In this document: positions 14,647-59,298 of the stretch, one piece after another
How the letters are laid out: every line of letters begins with the position of its first letter
Numbering within the stretch: the stretch's first letter is position 1
Assembly (NCBI GenBank): GCA_001657385.1
Contig: LYSZ01000002.1
Coordinates: 372,001-436,000 of the forward strand
Length of the DNA: 64,000 nucleotides
From: Parvularcula sp. BBD 1991-13
GTDB taxonomy: Bacteria > Pseudomonadota > Alphaproteobacteria > Caulobacterales > Parvularculaceae
Reading direction: 5' to 3'
The notes under the pieces: model-generated
What the model was told of the DNA's origin: nothing
The model's input: the letters and a program-made list of their open reading frames with translations, nothing else
The model's database searches: none
Program-made: the position numbers and the translations under genes

Positions 14647-14774
14647 TGCGCGGAACCCCTAGCCTTGCGCGGGTTCAAAGCGCCGCCCTGGCCGTCGGAC
14701 GCTTATTCGCCCTGGACCCAAAGGACCAGGTGGGCGCCACGTGAAAAGGACCGAGGGTCCGAGCCAGAGGCGGC
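14622..14774 (-). ncRNA. ssrS: Candidate 6S RNA
   Basis: A non-coding block directly upstream of the cyclo-ligase gene on the same strand, where ssrS lies in many Proteobacteria. Upstream is a -10-like TATAGAAT (14786-14779). The block folds: CGCCC/GGGCG with CTGG/CCAG (14708-14736) is a long imperfect hairpin, and GAACCC/GGGTTC (14653-14676) is another. These resemble the broken rod of 6S RNA, which binds the sigma-70 holoenzyme in stationary phase. The ends are approximate. I could not run a covariance search, so this rests on synteny and folding. Confidence 0.5.
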
Positions 14775-14893
14775 TCCCATTCTATAAGCTAAGGCCCCGG
14801 GGAATGTTGTCCTGACGCACCGGGCAGCCGCGTACATCTAGGCGCCCGCGGGCGGCTCGTAAAGGCCCCGCCGCGCGCCGGTCGGCGATCCCC

Positions 14894-54364: not shown

Positions 54365-54678
54365 TGGAAGCGCTGTTTCCTCCCGCGTTGGTCAAGCCGC
54401 CGTCTGCTTTGCGTCATGAATACCGAATCGGCGTTGCCTTGTGAAGGAAAATACCCTTTTCCCGGTCCCGAAAACCGGCCGCTCCTGCGGCCCGGGCGGG
54501 CGCGCCGGCGGCGTGAAAAGCCCTTGCATCCCGGCTTTCTTCGGCTATAACCCGCGTTCTTCGAACCGGTCGTCGGGCCCCTTAACCGGGAAACGGCATG
54601 CCTTGGCGGCCCATCGGGAGCGCAAACGGCTCCCCGCGTTCCTTTCGGGGGACGCCAGATAACGGACAGGAAAAGAAA
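54365..54678. other. Divergent region and leader upstream of rpmI
   Basis: 314 bases before rpmI. It contains a sigma-70-like promoter (54524-54551) and a leader of about 120 bases with GGGAGC/GCTCCC and CCCC/GGGG stems near 54617-54655. In many bacteria such rpmI-rplT leaders bind L20 to repress translation. No infC gene lies in this gap or upstream. Confidence 0.5.
54524..54551 (+). promoter_or_regulatory. Sigma-70-like promoter of rpmI-rplT
   Basis: TTGCAT (54524-54529), 16 bases, TATAAC (54546-54551). Transcription would begin near 54558, leaving a structured leader before the rpmI ATG. Confidence 0.55.
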
Positions 54679-54879
54679 ATGCCAAAGATGAAGACGAAAT
54701 CGGGCGCCAAGAAGCGCTTCAAGATGACCGCCTCGGGCAAGGTCAAGGCGGGCGTCGCCGGCAAGCGCCACGGCATGATCAAGCGCACGCCCAAGCAGAT
54801 CCGCCAGAACCGGGGCATGGACGTTCTCGCCGATCCGGACGCGCGGATCGTCAAGAAATACATGCCCTATAACCGGTAA
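54679..54879 (+). CDS. rpmI: 50S ribosomal protein L35
   Basis: 66 residues, basic, with the L35 pattern [29 protein letters not shown] and [10 protein letters not shown]. It assembles into the large subunit. AGGA lies 8 bases before the ATG. First gene of rpmI-rplT, 12 bases from rplT. Confidence 0.97.
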
Positions 54880-54891
54880 GGAGCGCGCCCC

Positions 54892-55248
54892 ATGTCCCGT
54901 GTGAAAAGAGGCGTCACCGCCCACGCCCGCCACCGCAAGATCATCAAGAAGGCGAAAGGCTATTACGGCCGCCGCAAGAACACCTTCCGCGTCGCCAATC
55001 AGGCCGTGGAGAAGGCCGGCCAGTACGCCTATCGCGACCGCCGCGCGCGCAAGCGCAACTTCCGCTCGCTCTGGATCCAGCGCATCAACGCCGCCGCCCG
55101 CGAGGCGGGCCTTACCTACGCCCGATTTATCAACGGGCTCGACCGCGCCGGGATCGAGGTGGACCGCAAGGTTCTCGCCGATATCGCCGTGAAAGAGCCC
55201 GAGGCGTTCAAGGCCCTGGCGGAAAAGGCGAAAGCGGCCCTCGCTTGA
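54892..55248 (+). CDS. rplT: 50S ribosomal protein L20
   Basis: 118 residues of the normal L20 type: [30 protein letters not shown], then [28 protein letters not shown]20 is needed for early large-subunit assembly and represses its own operon in many bacteria. Its TGA overlaps a TTG that opens a possible Phe leader peptide. Confidence 0.98.
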
Positions 55249-55280
55249 GTTTTTTCCGTCCCCGGCCAACGCCAGATTGA
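55245..55280 (+). CDS. Candidate Phe leader peptide of the pheST attenuator
   Basis: An 11-codon frame from a TTG (55245) overlapping the rplT stop, encoding (M)[10 protein letters not shown] and ending TGA at 55280. Two Phe codons (55251-55256) sit just before the first attenuator arm. The start is non-ATG with only a weak AAGCGG-like site and may rely on ribosomes ending rplT. Supported by its position in the attenuator; no independent proof. Confidence 0.5.
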
Positions 55281-55345
55281 GACCGGGTGACGTTTGCGCA
55301 GGAACCGAATAAAGCGTCACTCCGCGGGTGACGCTTTTTCTTTTT
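55258..55345 (+). promoter_or_regulatory. Attenuator upstream of pheST
   Basis: Three alternative pairings can form. Arm 1 (55258-55265) pairs with arm 2 (55283-55291). Arm 2, GTGACGTTT (55287-55295), can instead pair with arm 3, AAAGCGTCAC (55311-55320). Arm 3 can also pair with GTGACGCTTT (55328-55337) as a terminator. Stalling at the Phe codons would cover arm 1 and let 2:3 form, permitting pheS transcription when charged tRNA-Phe is scarce. Confidence 0.6.
55311..55345 (+). terminator. Intrinsic terminator between rplT and pheS
   Basis: A perfect 10-base stem (AAAGCGTCAC/GTGACGCTTT) with a 7-base loop, followed by TTCTTTTT. Very strong by sequence. It ends the rpmI-rplT transcript and serves as the attenuator's terminator. 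Confidence 0.85.
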
Positions 55346-55370
55346 GCTGACTTCACGGGAGACGGACGCC

Positions 55371-56447
55371 ATGTCCGACATAGAAACGCTGGAAAACGAC
55401 CTCTTGGCGAAAATCGACGCCGCTTCCACCGAAGCCGGCCTCGAAGAGGTGCGCGTCGCCGCTCTCGGCAAGAAGGGCGCCGTCTCCGAGCGGATGAAGA
55501 CCCTCGGCAAGATGAGCCCCGAGGAGCGCAAGGAAATGGGTCCCGCGCTGAACGGGCTCAAGACCCGCATCGCCGAAGCGATCGAGGCCAGGAAAGCGGC
55601 GCTGGAAGAGGCGGCGCTGGAGGCGCGCCTCGCTTCGGAGACCGTGGACGTCACGCTGCCGCCCGCGCCGGAGGCCAGGGGCTCGATCCATCCGGTCAGT
55701 CAGGTGACGGACGAAATCACCGCGATTTTCTCGGCCATGGGCTTTTCCGTCGCCGAGGGGCCGGATATCGAGGATGACTTCCACAACTTCACGGCCCTCA
55801 ACTTTCCCGCCGACCACCCGGCGCGGGAGATGCACGACACGTTCTTCTTCGAGCCGAAGGAGGACGGATCGCGGATGCTCCTGCGCACCCACACATCGCC
55901 GGTGCAGATCCGCACCATGATGACCGAGAAACCGCCGCTTCGCATCATCATCCCGGGGCGGACTTTTCGCTGCGACTCAGACCAGACCCATACGCCGATG
56001 TTCCACCAGGTCGAGGGCCTCGTTATCGACAAGGAGACCCATATGGGTCACCTCAAAGGCACGCTGGAAGCTTTCGCGAAAGCCTATTTCGAGGTCGACA
56101 GCGTCAGGACCCGCTTCCGCCCGCACTTCTTTCCGTTCACGGAGCCGTCGGCGGAAATGGACATCGGTTACGAGCGCGTCGGGAATGAAATCCGCATCGG
56201 CCAGGGAGAGAAGTGGATGGAGATCCTCGGCTGCGGCATGGTGCATCCGAACGTGATGAGGAATTGCGGCCTCGATCCGGACGAGTATCAGGGCTTCGCC
56301 TTCGGCATGGGCGTCGATCGCCTCGCCATGCTGAAATACGGCATTCCGGACCTGCGCGACTTCTTCGCCGCCGATGCGCGCTGGCTGGAGCATTACGGAT
56401 TCGATGCGCTCGACACGCCGAGCCTGTGGGCGGGGTTAAGCCGGTGA
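55371..56447 (+). CDS. pheS: Phenylalanyl-tRNA synthetase alpha subunit
   Basis: 358 residues, class II synthetase catalytic subunit. The N-terminal coiled coil is followed by motif 2 ([19 protein letters not shown]) and motif 3 ([17 protein letters not shown]). GGGAGACGGA lies just before the ATG at 55371. Its TGA overlaps the GTG of an inserted membrane gene (GTGA) instead of leading directly to pheT. Confidence 0.97.
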
Positions 56448-56890
56448 CGCCTTCAGATACCCCTGATTACGTCAACGAATTCTATATTGGCCGTGCTAAT
56501 GCTTTCCATACGGCTGCGTTGGGGATTGCGGCGTTCAATGTGTTGCAAACCATAGCCTTTGCAAATGTCGTTGCTGGCCCGCCGCCGATATATTGCCGCG
56601 TGGATTCGCCGACGGGAATCATTGCGGTATACGCAGTATTACTGCTGTTGATGGCGCTGTATATGGCGGCGATTTTCATGTGCGACGCATTTCAGGGGGC
56701 GTATCTTGATCGCGCGAAGCTTGATATCGGCGGTCTGCGCAGGCGGATGCGCCGGTACTTGCTGGCGCTCATGGCGACAACGACAGTCCTTTCCGCGGGT
56801 ATTTTTTCGATTGTGATGTTTGTCAGTCCCACTATGTCGGTCTGCATTCAGAATGCCTCGCCGAACATTGAAATCGGAATTGCGTTATGA
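56444..56890 (+). CDS. Low-GC membrane protein inserted between pheS and pheT
   Basis: 148 residues with three hydrophobic helices (about 23-43, 58-80, 105-128) and an RR-rich loop. Starts at a GTG overlapping the pheS stop and ends in a TGA overlapping the pheT ATG, so it is translationally coupled to both. Its codons end in A or T far more often than its neighbours', so it was probably acquired more recently. No family recognised. Two Cys near the outer loops (50, 134) are conspicuous. Confidence 0.7.
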
Positions 56891-59298
56891 AATTCACCCT
56901 TAGCTGGCTCAAAGAGCATCTGGAAACGAACGCGTCTCTCGATCAGATTGTGGAGACCATGGTGGCGGTCGGTCTTGAGGTCGAAAGCGTCGAGAATCCG
57001 GCCGAGCGCCTGAAGGACTTCACCATCGGCGAGGTGCTGCACGCGGAAAAGCATCCGGACGCGGACAAGCTTCGCGTGTGCCGGGTCGCCACGAAAGACG
57101 GCGAAAAACAGATCGTGTGCGGCGCGCCGAATGCGCGCGCGGGGATCAAGGTCGCCTACGCCGCCGTCGGGACCTATGTGCCGGGCATCGACCTGACGCT
57201 GAAAAAAGCGAAGATCCGCGGCGTGGAAAGCCTCGGCATGATGTGCTCGGCGCGCGAACTGGAACTGGGCGACGATCACGACGGCATTATCGAAGCGCCG
57301 GCGGACGCTGAAATCGGCGCGCCCGTCGCCGAGATCCTGGGCGCCAACGACCCCGTGATCGATTTCGAGGTCACGCCCAACCGTCCGGACACGAACGGCG
57401 TCAACGGCGTCGCCCGCGACCTCGCCGCCGCGGGGCTCGGCCGGCTCGTCACACCGGCGCCGGAGGCGGTCAGGGGCGCCTTCGCGAACCCGCAGCCGAT
57501 CGGCCTGCACTTCCCGGAAGCGGCGAGGAACGCCTGTCCGGTGTTCGCGGGCCGGGTTATCCGCGGGGTGAAAAACGGTCCGTCTCCGGAATGGCTGCAA
57601 CAACGCCTGCGGGCGGTCGGCTTGCGTCCCATCAACGCGCTGGTGGATATCACCAACTACATGTCGCTCGACCGCGCCCGCCCGCTCCACGTCTACGACG
57701 CGGATAAGCTGAAGGGCGAGATCCGCGCCCGCCTCGGCGCGAAGGGAGAGCGTTACCTCGCCCTTGACGGCAAGGAGTACGAGGCGGACGAGACCATCTG
57801 CGTTATCGCCGATGACAACGGGGTTCTCGGTTTCGGCGGCGTGATGGGCGGCGAGACAACCGGGTGCACGGAGGAAACGACCAGCGTTTTCATCGAAAGC
57901 GCCTATTTCGATCCCCTGCGCACCGCCAAGACGGGCCGCAAGACCGGCATTGTCTCCGACGCGCGCTACCGTTTCGAGCGCGGCGTCGATCCGGCCTTTG
58001 TCGTTCCGGGCCTCGAGATGGCGACGCGCCTGGCGCTCGACATGTGCGGCGGCGAGCCGGGCGAGATCGAGGTTGCGGGCGCCGCCCCGGTCACGGACCG
58101 CGTCATCGATTTTCCGCCCGCTGAGGTTCTCCGCCTTACCGGCATGGACGTTGTGGCGGAAGACAGCAGGCGCATTCTGAAGGCGCTCGGCTTCAAGGTC
58201 GATGAAGGCGAGCCGCAGCGCGTATGCGCGCCGTCATGGCGGCCGGACATTCACGGCAAGGCCGACCTGGTCGAGGAAATCGCGCGCATTGTCGGCTTCG
58301 ACAACCTGCCCGCGGCGCCTCTGCCGGCGCGGCGGGCGGTGGAGACGCCGAAGCTGACCCCGATGCAACAGCGCCGCGCCCGCGCCCGCCGCGCGCTGGC
58401 TGCGCGCGGTCTCCATGAAGCGGTGACATGGTCGTTTACGGACGAATGTTTCGCGGCGCTGTTCTGCGACGGCGCGGACTGGCTGCGCGCGCGCGGCTTG
58501 ATCCTCGCCAACCCCATCGCTTCCGACCTGTCGGCGATGCGGCCGTCCATCTTGCCGAACCTGATCGCGGCGCTTCAGCGCAACGCCGATCACGGGCGCG
58601 GCGATCTCGCCCTGTTCGAGGCGGCGCCGATCTATCGCGGCGACGGCCCGGCGGACCAGTTGATGACGGCGAGCGGCGCGCGCCGTTCCAGCCCGCCGCG
58701 CCACTGGCGGGGCGGGCCTTCGCCGGCGGATGTCTTCACCGTGAAGGCGGACCTTGTCGCGGCGCTCGCCGCCGCGTCCGCGCCCACGGCCAGCCTTCAG
58801 ACAACGGATGATGCGCCTGCCTATTATCATCCGGGACGGTCGGGCGTCCTGCGCCTCGGCCCGAACGCGCTCGGCTATTTCGGGGAAATTCATCCGCGCG
58901 TTCTGAAAGCGATGGATGCGCACGGCCCGCTCTACGGCTTCGAGGCGTTTCTGGACGCCGTTCCCGAAAGCAAGAAAAAGGCGGTCAAGACCCGGCCGGC
59001 CCTGGACGTCGCCGAGCTTCTGCCGCTGACGCGCGACTTTGCTTTTGTCGTGGATCGGGATGTCGCCGCGGAAACCCTGCTGAAGGCTGTGCGCGGCGCG
59101 GACAAAAAACTGATCGCCGATGTCGCCCTGTTCGACGTCTACGAGGGCAAGGGCGTACCGGAAGGCAAGAAGTCTCTCGCGGTGGAGGCGGTGATCCAGC
59201 CGCGCGAAAAAACGCTGACCGATGAAGATATCGAGGCGCTCAGCGCGCGCATCGTCGCCCAGGCGGAGAAGGCGACCGGAGGCGTCCTGCGGCGATGA
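56887..59298 (+). CDS. pheT: Phenylalanyl-tRNA synthetase beta subunit
   Basis: 803 residues, the usual size. The N-terminal tRNA-binding domain (about 40-155, ADKLRVCRVAT, IVCGAPNARAGIKVAYAAVG), the B3/B4 editing domain, the B5 region (VDEGEPQRVCAPSWRPDIHGKADLVEEIARIVGFDNLP), and the C-terminal FDX-ACB anticodon-binding domain (LPLTRDFAFVVDRDV, EALSARIVAQAEKATGG) are all present. Together with PheS it charges tRNA-Phe. Confidence 0.97.
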   Translation: MKFTLSWLKEHLETNASLDQIVETMVAVGLEVESVENPAERLKDFTIGEVLHAEKHPDADKLRVCRVATKDGEKQIVCGAPNARAGIKVAYAAVGTYVPGIDLTLKKAKIRGVESLGMMCSARELELGDDHDGIIEAPADAEIGAPVAEILGANDPVIDFEVTPNRPDTNGVNGVARDLAAAGLGRLVTPAPEAVRGAFANPQPIGLHFPEAARNACPVFAGRVIRGVKNGPSPEWLQQRLRAVGLRPINALVDITNYMSLDRARPLHVYDADKLKGEIRARLGAKGERYLALDGKEYEADETICVIADDNGVLGFGGVMGGETTGCTEETTSVFIESAYFDPLRTAKTGRKTGIVSDARYRFERGVDPAFVVPGLEMATRLALDMCGGEPGEIEVAGAAPVTDRVIDFPPAEVLRLTGMDVVAEDSRRILKALGFKVDEGEPQRVCAPSWRPDIHGKADLVEEIARIVGFDNLPAAPLPARRAVETPKLTPMQQRRARARRALAARGLHEAVTWSFTDECFAALFCDGADWLRARGLILANPIASDLSAMRPSILPNLIAALQRNADHGRGDLALFEAAPIYRGDGPADQLMTASGARRSSPPRHWRGGPSPADVFTVKADLVAALAAASAPTASLQTTDDAPAYYHPGRSGVLRLGPNALGYFGEIHPRVLKAMDAHGPLYGFEAFLDAVPESKKKAVKTRPALDVAELLPLTRDFAFVVDRDVAAETLLKAVRGADKKLIADVALFDVYEGKGVPEGKKSLAVEAVIQPREKTLTDEDIEALSARIVAQAEKATGGVLRR

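Follow-up and report, generated by a model that had tools for sequence, protein, structure and literature searches.

In E. coli the genes stand in the order rplT, leader, terminator and pheST, the same placement as that of the element described here. PheM is presented in a passage of PMC9291695 as the leader peptide that controls pheMST by attenuation, and gammaproteobacteria are known to attenuate pheST (passages of PMC1262725 and PMC9291695). Leader-peptide attenuation also exists in Alphaproteobacteria, e.g. at the ilv leader of Caulobacter crescentus (a passage of PMC4117421, where a figure legend terms rpmI-rplT a classical ribosomal protein operon), but ilv is a different operon from pheST. 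No alphaproteobacterial pheST attenuator was found in the open-access literature by title and start of abstract; Vitreschak et al. 2004 (FEMS Microbiol Lett) could describe some, and the main text of PMC2965389 contained no pheS, pheM or rplT.

The rplT–pheS junction in the window

In the window (the whole 64,000-nt stretch of DNA analysed, from a genome of 4.24 Mb), the order was rplT, candidate attenuator element and pheS. The 3′ end of rplT (54892–55248, + strand; ribosomal protein L20, Pfam PF00453) adjoined the element, followed by pheS (55371–56447, +; phenylalanyl-tRNA synthetase alpha, Pfam PF01409 and PF02912) and pheT (56887–59298, +; beta subunit, named by frame and place). Between pheS and pheT (56448–56886) lay a frame of about 150 residues that looks membrane-like, inside frame 56213–56890. 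A consensus scan of 54500–55500, covering only some promoter types, detected no sigma-70-like promoter, so pheS may depend on read-through. An Rfam search for a leader family, proposed as a check of the original prediction, gave no match at gathering score: the whole window yielded only tRNA and 6S RNA (the latter at 14677–14833, −, 58.2 bits), and below gathering score 55150–55450 gave nothing convincing (best ROSE_3, 20.9 bits versus 43 needed).

The original prediction was of a Phe-stalling attenuator with three pairing arms, and its parts were found in place. A short frame of 11 codons plus stop with adjacent Phe codons (55245–55280, +; TTG AGT TTT TTC CGT CCC CGG CCA ACG CCA GAT TGA) overlapped the rplT stop codon (55246–55248, +) and ended in a stop codon at 55278–55280 (+). 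Arm 1 (GTCCCCGG, 55258–55265, +), a possible anti-antiterminator, paired, with one bulged U, with CCGGGTGAC (55283–55291, +), a part of arm 2 (CCGGGTGACGTTT, 55283–55295, +). Through 55285–55295, arm 2 could instead pair with arm 3 (AAGCGTCACTC, 55312–55322, +) across a linker (55296–55311, +), and this antiterminator was longer than had been claimed, with 11 continuous pairs including G-U. Arm 3, common to antiterminator and terminator, was indeed the left half of an intrinsic terminator (55311–55345, +; stem 55311–55322/55326–55337 plus U-run). The stem ended 33 nt and the U-run about 25 nt before pheS; the window thus has, like the pheM-pheST kind, an intrinsic terminator shortly before pheS.

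The window's arms were more than chance. The fold of 55235–55345 had −41.9 kcal/mol (z = −2.97), and 1/200 shuffles was as stable; 0/500 shuffles contained an equally good upstream partner for arm 3, and the pairing of arms 1 and 2 gave p = 0.020. A terminator scan of 54500–55500 found 2 sites versus 1.9 in shuffles, and therefore proved nothing alone. As duplexes, antiterminator and terminator had −14.6 versus −16.8 kcal/mol, the former being slightly weaker because arm 2 is a near copy of arm 4, the right half of the terminator. In folding snapshots of the window, helix 1:2 formed alone before arm 3 was made, helix 2:3 formed with a ribosome on Phe-Phe, and a ribosome standing on the short frame's stop left arm 3 free; with nothing masked and the RNA extended to arm 3, 2:3 still won. 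These modelled folds agree in part with the attenuator logic.

When 55249–55282 was shuffled with TTGA kept, an adjacent-Phe frame arose in 5.4% of 5000 shuffles. Frames that also stopped close to arm 2 arose in 1.2% of the 5000, and in <0.05% when the rplT stop was drawn as among relatives, indicating that a chance origin of the short frame is moderately unlikely. By its position and by the snapshot, the stop of the frame was placed for a terminating ribosome to cover arm 2. The frame started with TTG, contained 2 Phe only and had no obvious Shine-Dalgarno sequence by eye.

Elements directly after rplT in relatives

Elements that follow rplT directly are called type A here, and those at a distance from its stop type B. 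A search for rplT in 60 genomes, including the window's, gave 59 loci in 58 genomes (two in G024), all of which were examined. A simple pattern identified the element in 17 of the 59, and a covariance model (R1, described below) added five type A genomes, making 22. The antiterminator, which excludes the terminator, had its 9-pair core intact in 17/17 loci (153/153 cells paired), with six of the nine pairs invariant and no covariation beyond that of shuffles (score reached by 152/500); on this alignment, the complementarity of 2:3 is conserved but not proven by compensatory change. The covariation score of the terminator over the 17 loci was reached by 3/500 shuffles, and its count of pairs changed on both sides was not above shuffles. 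In 16/17 loci ≤6/500 shuffles provided arm 3 with as good an upstream partner, the exception being L015 (p = 0.218). Pairing of arms 1 and 2 reached p ≤ 0.05 against shuffles in only 7/17 loci, covariation sought in the 17 gave it no support, and a locus's own arm 1 ranked first with its own arm 2 in only 4/17.

By eye, arm 1 paired with arm 2 in four loci of a second genus as an 8-pair helix, with G-U at the position of the window's bulge, and it started 7–12 nt after the rplT stop in 13 aligned, insert-free loci of two genera. Arm 1 and the pyrimidine tract preceding it were kept in two genera; the best candidate for arm 1 was about 30–35 nt from the rplT stop in L005 and L008. The distance from arm 2 to arm 3 was 26 nt in 14/17 loci (L005, L008 and L029 deviating). 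In equilibrium folding, 2:3 won with arm 1 unmasked in 16/21 loci, and so arm 1 can have an effect only if its helix forms earlier; in L005, 2:3 was never formed. The folds suggest that the default without any ribosome may be read-through. Inserts between arms 1 and 2 were present in L004, L015, L018, L019, L020 and L029, the arms being untouched (by eye), and those of L004, L015, L020 and L029 were CATCCTGAGG...GGATG-like sequences in the loop of hairpin 1:2.

Another same-strand frame lay between the element and pheS in 9/17 loci. The first gene behind the element was a peptidase S58 gene in L009 (Pfam; L013 alike by eye), a GNAT gene in L015 and a methyltransferase gene in L029; those of L002 and L007 had no Pfam match (L017 and L059 similar by eye), and L020 was another locus with an intervening gene. 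A peptidase S58-like gene ended just before pheS in G012, G017, G003, G024, G029 and G060 (by eye; by Pfam for G017, which carries L009), and in G012, G017 and G003 it sat behind the attenuator.

The predicted conservation of Phe-Phe codons in the rplT–pheS gap was not borne out. Phe-Phe behind a start (ATG, GTG or TTG) was detected in at least 1/22 type A genomes, the window's only, among up to four frames per locus in five of the 22, and a Phe leader conserved across type A was rejected. In G014, the closest neighbour of the window in the PheS tree (support 96/94), TTG was replaced by TTA, the frame had one Phe codon, and there was no stop at the position of the window's short-frame stop. 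By this comparison, the leader of the window would be at best reduced and private to its genome. Relatives that keep the terminator and lack the frame, the Phe codons or the pairing of arms 1 and 2, which had been named as counting against the prediction, do exist as far as frame and Phe-Phe are concerned (absent in 21/22); 2:3 is kept, and Phe leaders occur in type B. Longer TTG frames starting within rplT, with one or two separate Phe codons, occurred in L158, L161, L163 and L174 but not in the other loci, and were discounted. A frame opening with GTG in arm 2 and closing with TAA just before arm 3 (8 codons, e.g. MTFHAEFD) was present in 7/17 loci (L004, L007, L009, L018, L019, L020 and L027), elsewhere shortened or absent and in the window without such a stop; it was rejected as a leader.

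Homologous elements behind Phe-rich leaders

Nine genomes of the same genus as the window carried a homologous element upstream of the pheST operon, behind a Phe-rich leader (type B). It lay directly before pheS in 7/9, other genes (one peptidase S58-like by eye) intervening in G003 and G020, and was several hundred nt from rplT in eight genomes and about 220 nt in G020. The leaders were MTFFEFFFRSVD (G022), MTFFKFFFRSVD (G025), MPKFEFFFGSAH (G008), MMSIFLFFFRSAD (G003, start uncertain), MKTVFVDPFRAFVVFGGFFTGTP (G023), MRNTAVMPFRAFTRFKGFFTGAP (G015), MKNVAVFPFRAFAQFEGLFTGAL (G001), MNIAGRHFRECFTRAVGFFGSLP (G013) and, in G020, a 31-residue frame ending GFFFFRNAF. Each contained 4–6 Phe (P from 3.9e-5 to 0.011, assuming a 4% Phe background). 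A translatable Phe-rich leader was present in 9/9 of type B, compared with Phe-Phe behind a start in 1/22 type A genomes. The last Phe-Phe (Leu-Phe in G001) ended 4 codons ahead of the TGA stop, whose end lay 30 nt before arm 3, in all nine. In the antiterminator core 63/63 cells were paired, with no both-sided change. Just 5′ of most type B leaders (L180–L187), a GGGCCCTCGACA..GAGGGCCC-like hairpin with a T-run was seen by eye, as was a promoter-like TCGACA followed 15 or 17 nt on by TAT; the latter was kept in G013 (L184), where the hairpin preceding the leader seems broken.

Type B shared arm 2, arm 3, the terminator and nearly the same spacing with the type in the window, likewise upstream of pheST; unlike it, type B had a Phe-rich leader that begins at a start of its own, possibly a hairpin in the linker, and no obvious arm 1 (by eye). 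The window's frame stopped 33 nt before arm 3 compared with 30 nt in type B, i.e. 3 nt apart, and opened M-S-F-F where the G022 leader opened M-T-F-F; its Phe pair lay 7 codons before the stop, against 4 codons in type B.

Two covariance models were employed. R1, built from the 17 type A loci and run on 62 genomes of the family (E ≤ 0.01), matched in 32/62: 22 with type A (17 being training loci), nine with type B, and G024, whose match (E = 0.0045) was an unrelated chance terminator and was discarded; G001 had a second match (E = 0.0046). R2, built from the nine type B elements alone, recovered 21/22 type A elements (not that of G032), including the window's at E = 6.9e-7, although the G002 match covered the terminator half only and the weakest type A matches (about 1e-4) overlapped background. 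The type A and type B models thus find each other. Among the 62 genomes, three genera had type A and a single genus type B; the PheS tree gave no resolution at its inner branches. Across the order, R1 (E ≤ 0.001) matched 28/299 genomes, which all belonged to three genera of this family; because the strict filters applied here passed over G003 and G025, more distant elements, or ones resembling type B, may exist elsewhere. A repeated mobile element was rejected as an explanation, the pattern having 18 matches in 28 genomes of the genus: 12 were 32-nt copies, one per genome, in type A rplT loci, and the other 6 had different spacing and were located elsewhere.

A leader scan of 81 loci with pheS ≤400 nt behind rplT (Parvularculaceae loci included) gave no accepted Phe leader outside Parvularculaceae. 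Phe-rich frames in Rhizobium and Mesorhizobium rplT–pheS gaps were leader-like, some of their Phe codons coming from the terminator U-run, and were rejected; none was kept across the loci compared (by eye). In Rhizobiaceae and relatives, a different competing hairpin pair was seen by eye after rplT, CCAGCGC...GCGCTGG versus CCCGCGC...GCGCGGG plus U-run (L081, L085, L092, L110, L114, L115, L120, L128, L130, L132, L134 and L135); across these loci no Phe leader was kept, and four of them had no Rfam match at gathering score.

Proposed control of pheST and comparison with known attenuators

We consider it reasonably likely that 55245–55345 attenuates transcription of the pheST operon under the control of translation. 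Since congeners carry a homologous element with a Phe leader and R1 and R2 cross-match, it probably belongs to an attenuator family sensing Phe through a leader. A ribosome held 5′ of arm 2 would cover arm 1, so that 2:3 could form and RNA polymerase read into pheST; helix 1:2, as third helix, would free arm 3 for the terminator (3:4), and a ribosome advanced to the stop of the short frame (55278–55280) would cover arm 2, so that arm 3 stays available for the terminator. For the nine congeners, the ribosome held 5′ of arm 2 would be one starved at the Phe codons. In the window genome it is possible, with the balance somewhat against it, that this ribosome is starved at the Phe pair of the reduced TTG frame, and functional Phe sensing through that frame is viewed with the same reserve; a ribosome finishing rplT is a more doubtful candidate. 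Of the Phe-stalling logic originally proposed, the three helices stood, supported by 2:3 in 17/17 loci and by the Phe leader in nine congeners; the Phe-Phe frame, seen in 1/22 type A genomes, was not supported for that type. Stalling in the TTG frame may hold for the window genome but leaves the conserved element of type A unexplained.

In the other type A genomes, a ribosome finishing rplT is the main rival to leader sensing. Here rplT itself would be the leader: a ribosome at its stop would cover or crowd arm 1, coupling with polymerase would give read-through and uncoupling termination, no amino acid would be sensed, and the TTG frame would be chance. We regard this as rather unlikely. The position of arm 1 at 7–12 nt past the rplT stop (13 insert-free loci, two genera), the absence of the Phe-Phe frame from 21/22 type A genomes and the persistence of the element at rplT even when other genes come next speak for it, but arm 1 has hardly any effect at equilibrium, lies at about 30–35 nt in L005 and L008, and type B has Phe codons instead; moreover, a ribosome of usual footprint at the rplT stop of the window reaches only the first bases of arm 1. 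That antiterminator is favoured without masking in 16/21 loci, that no sensor is conserved in type A and that genes of other functions come first behind the element in 9/17 loci would also suit a fixed leaky terminator, sensing nothing and setting the rplT:pheST ratio, with the competing helix merely weakening it. The retention in two genera of arm 1 and its pyrimidine tract, and the leaders of fixed geometry in the homologous type B elements, argue against such a terminator, which we regard as improbable.

Least probable, in our judgement, is a pheST promoter hidden in arm 2 and the linker (GTGACG-N17-TAAAGC), from which transcripts starting within the terminator would escape termination. It would account for the near-constant spacing (26 nt in 14/17 loci), and there is little space for a promoter 3′ of the terminator, but the consensus scan, which covers only some promoter types, gave no promoter-like site, the first base of the putative −35 box was T in 0/17 loci and always paired with arm 3, and the spacing was broken in L005, L008 and L029. 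Under attenuation, the reading we prefer, a tentative and rather speculative extension is that, within one alphaproteobacterial family, the Phe-leader pheST attenuator has two interchangeable forms, of which the first possesses a leader peptide and the second is joined to the rplT end, and that in the latter an RNA arm and the ribosome finishing rplT replace the leader, synthetase supply then following ribosomal protein translation and not phenylalanine.

These results add a family of pheST attenuators, nine of them with a clear leader peptide, from one family of Alphaproteobacteria, and as the same switch occurs with and without a leader within one genus, loss or change of an attenuator sensor becomes experimentally approachable. 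The leaders of the nine type B elements seem to be further examples of an attenuator kind already known, and type A is a variant whose sensor is absent or altered and whose element is joined to rplT. Compared with the enteric pheM-pheST of E. coli, the window element has the same logic, whereas type A has no conserved Phe leader, and the window has instead a two-Phe TTG frame that overlaps the rplT stop.
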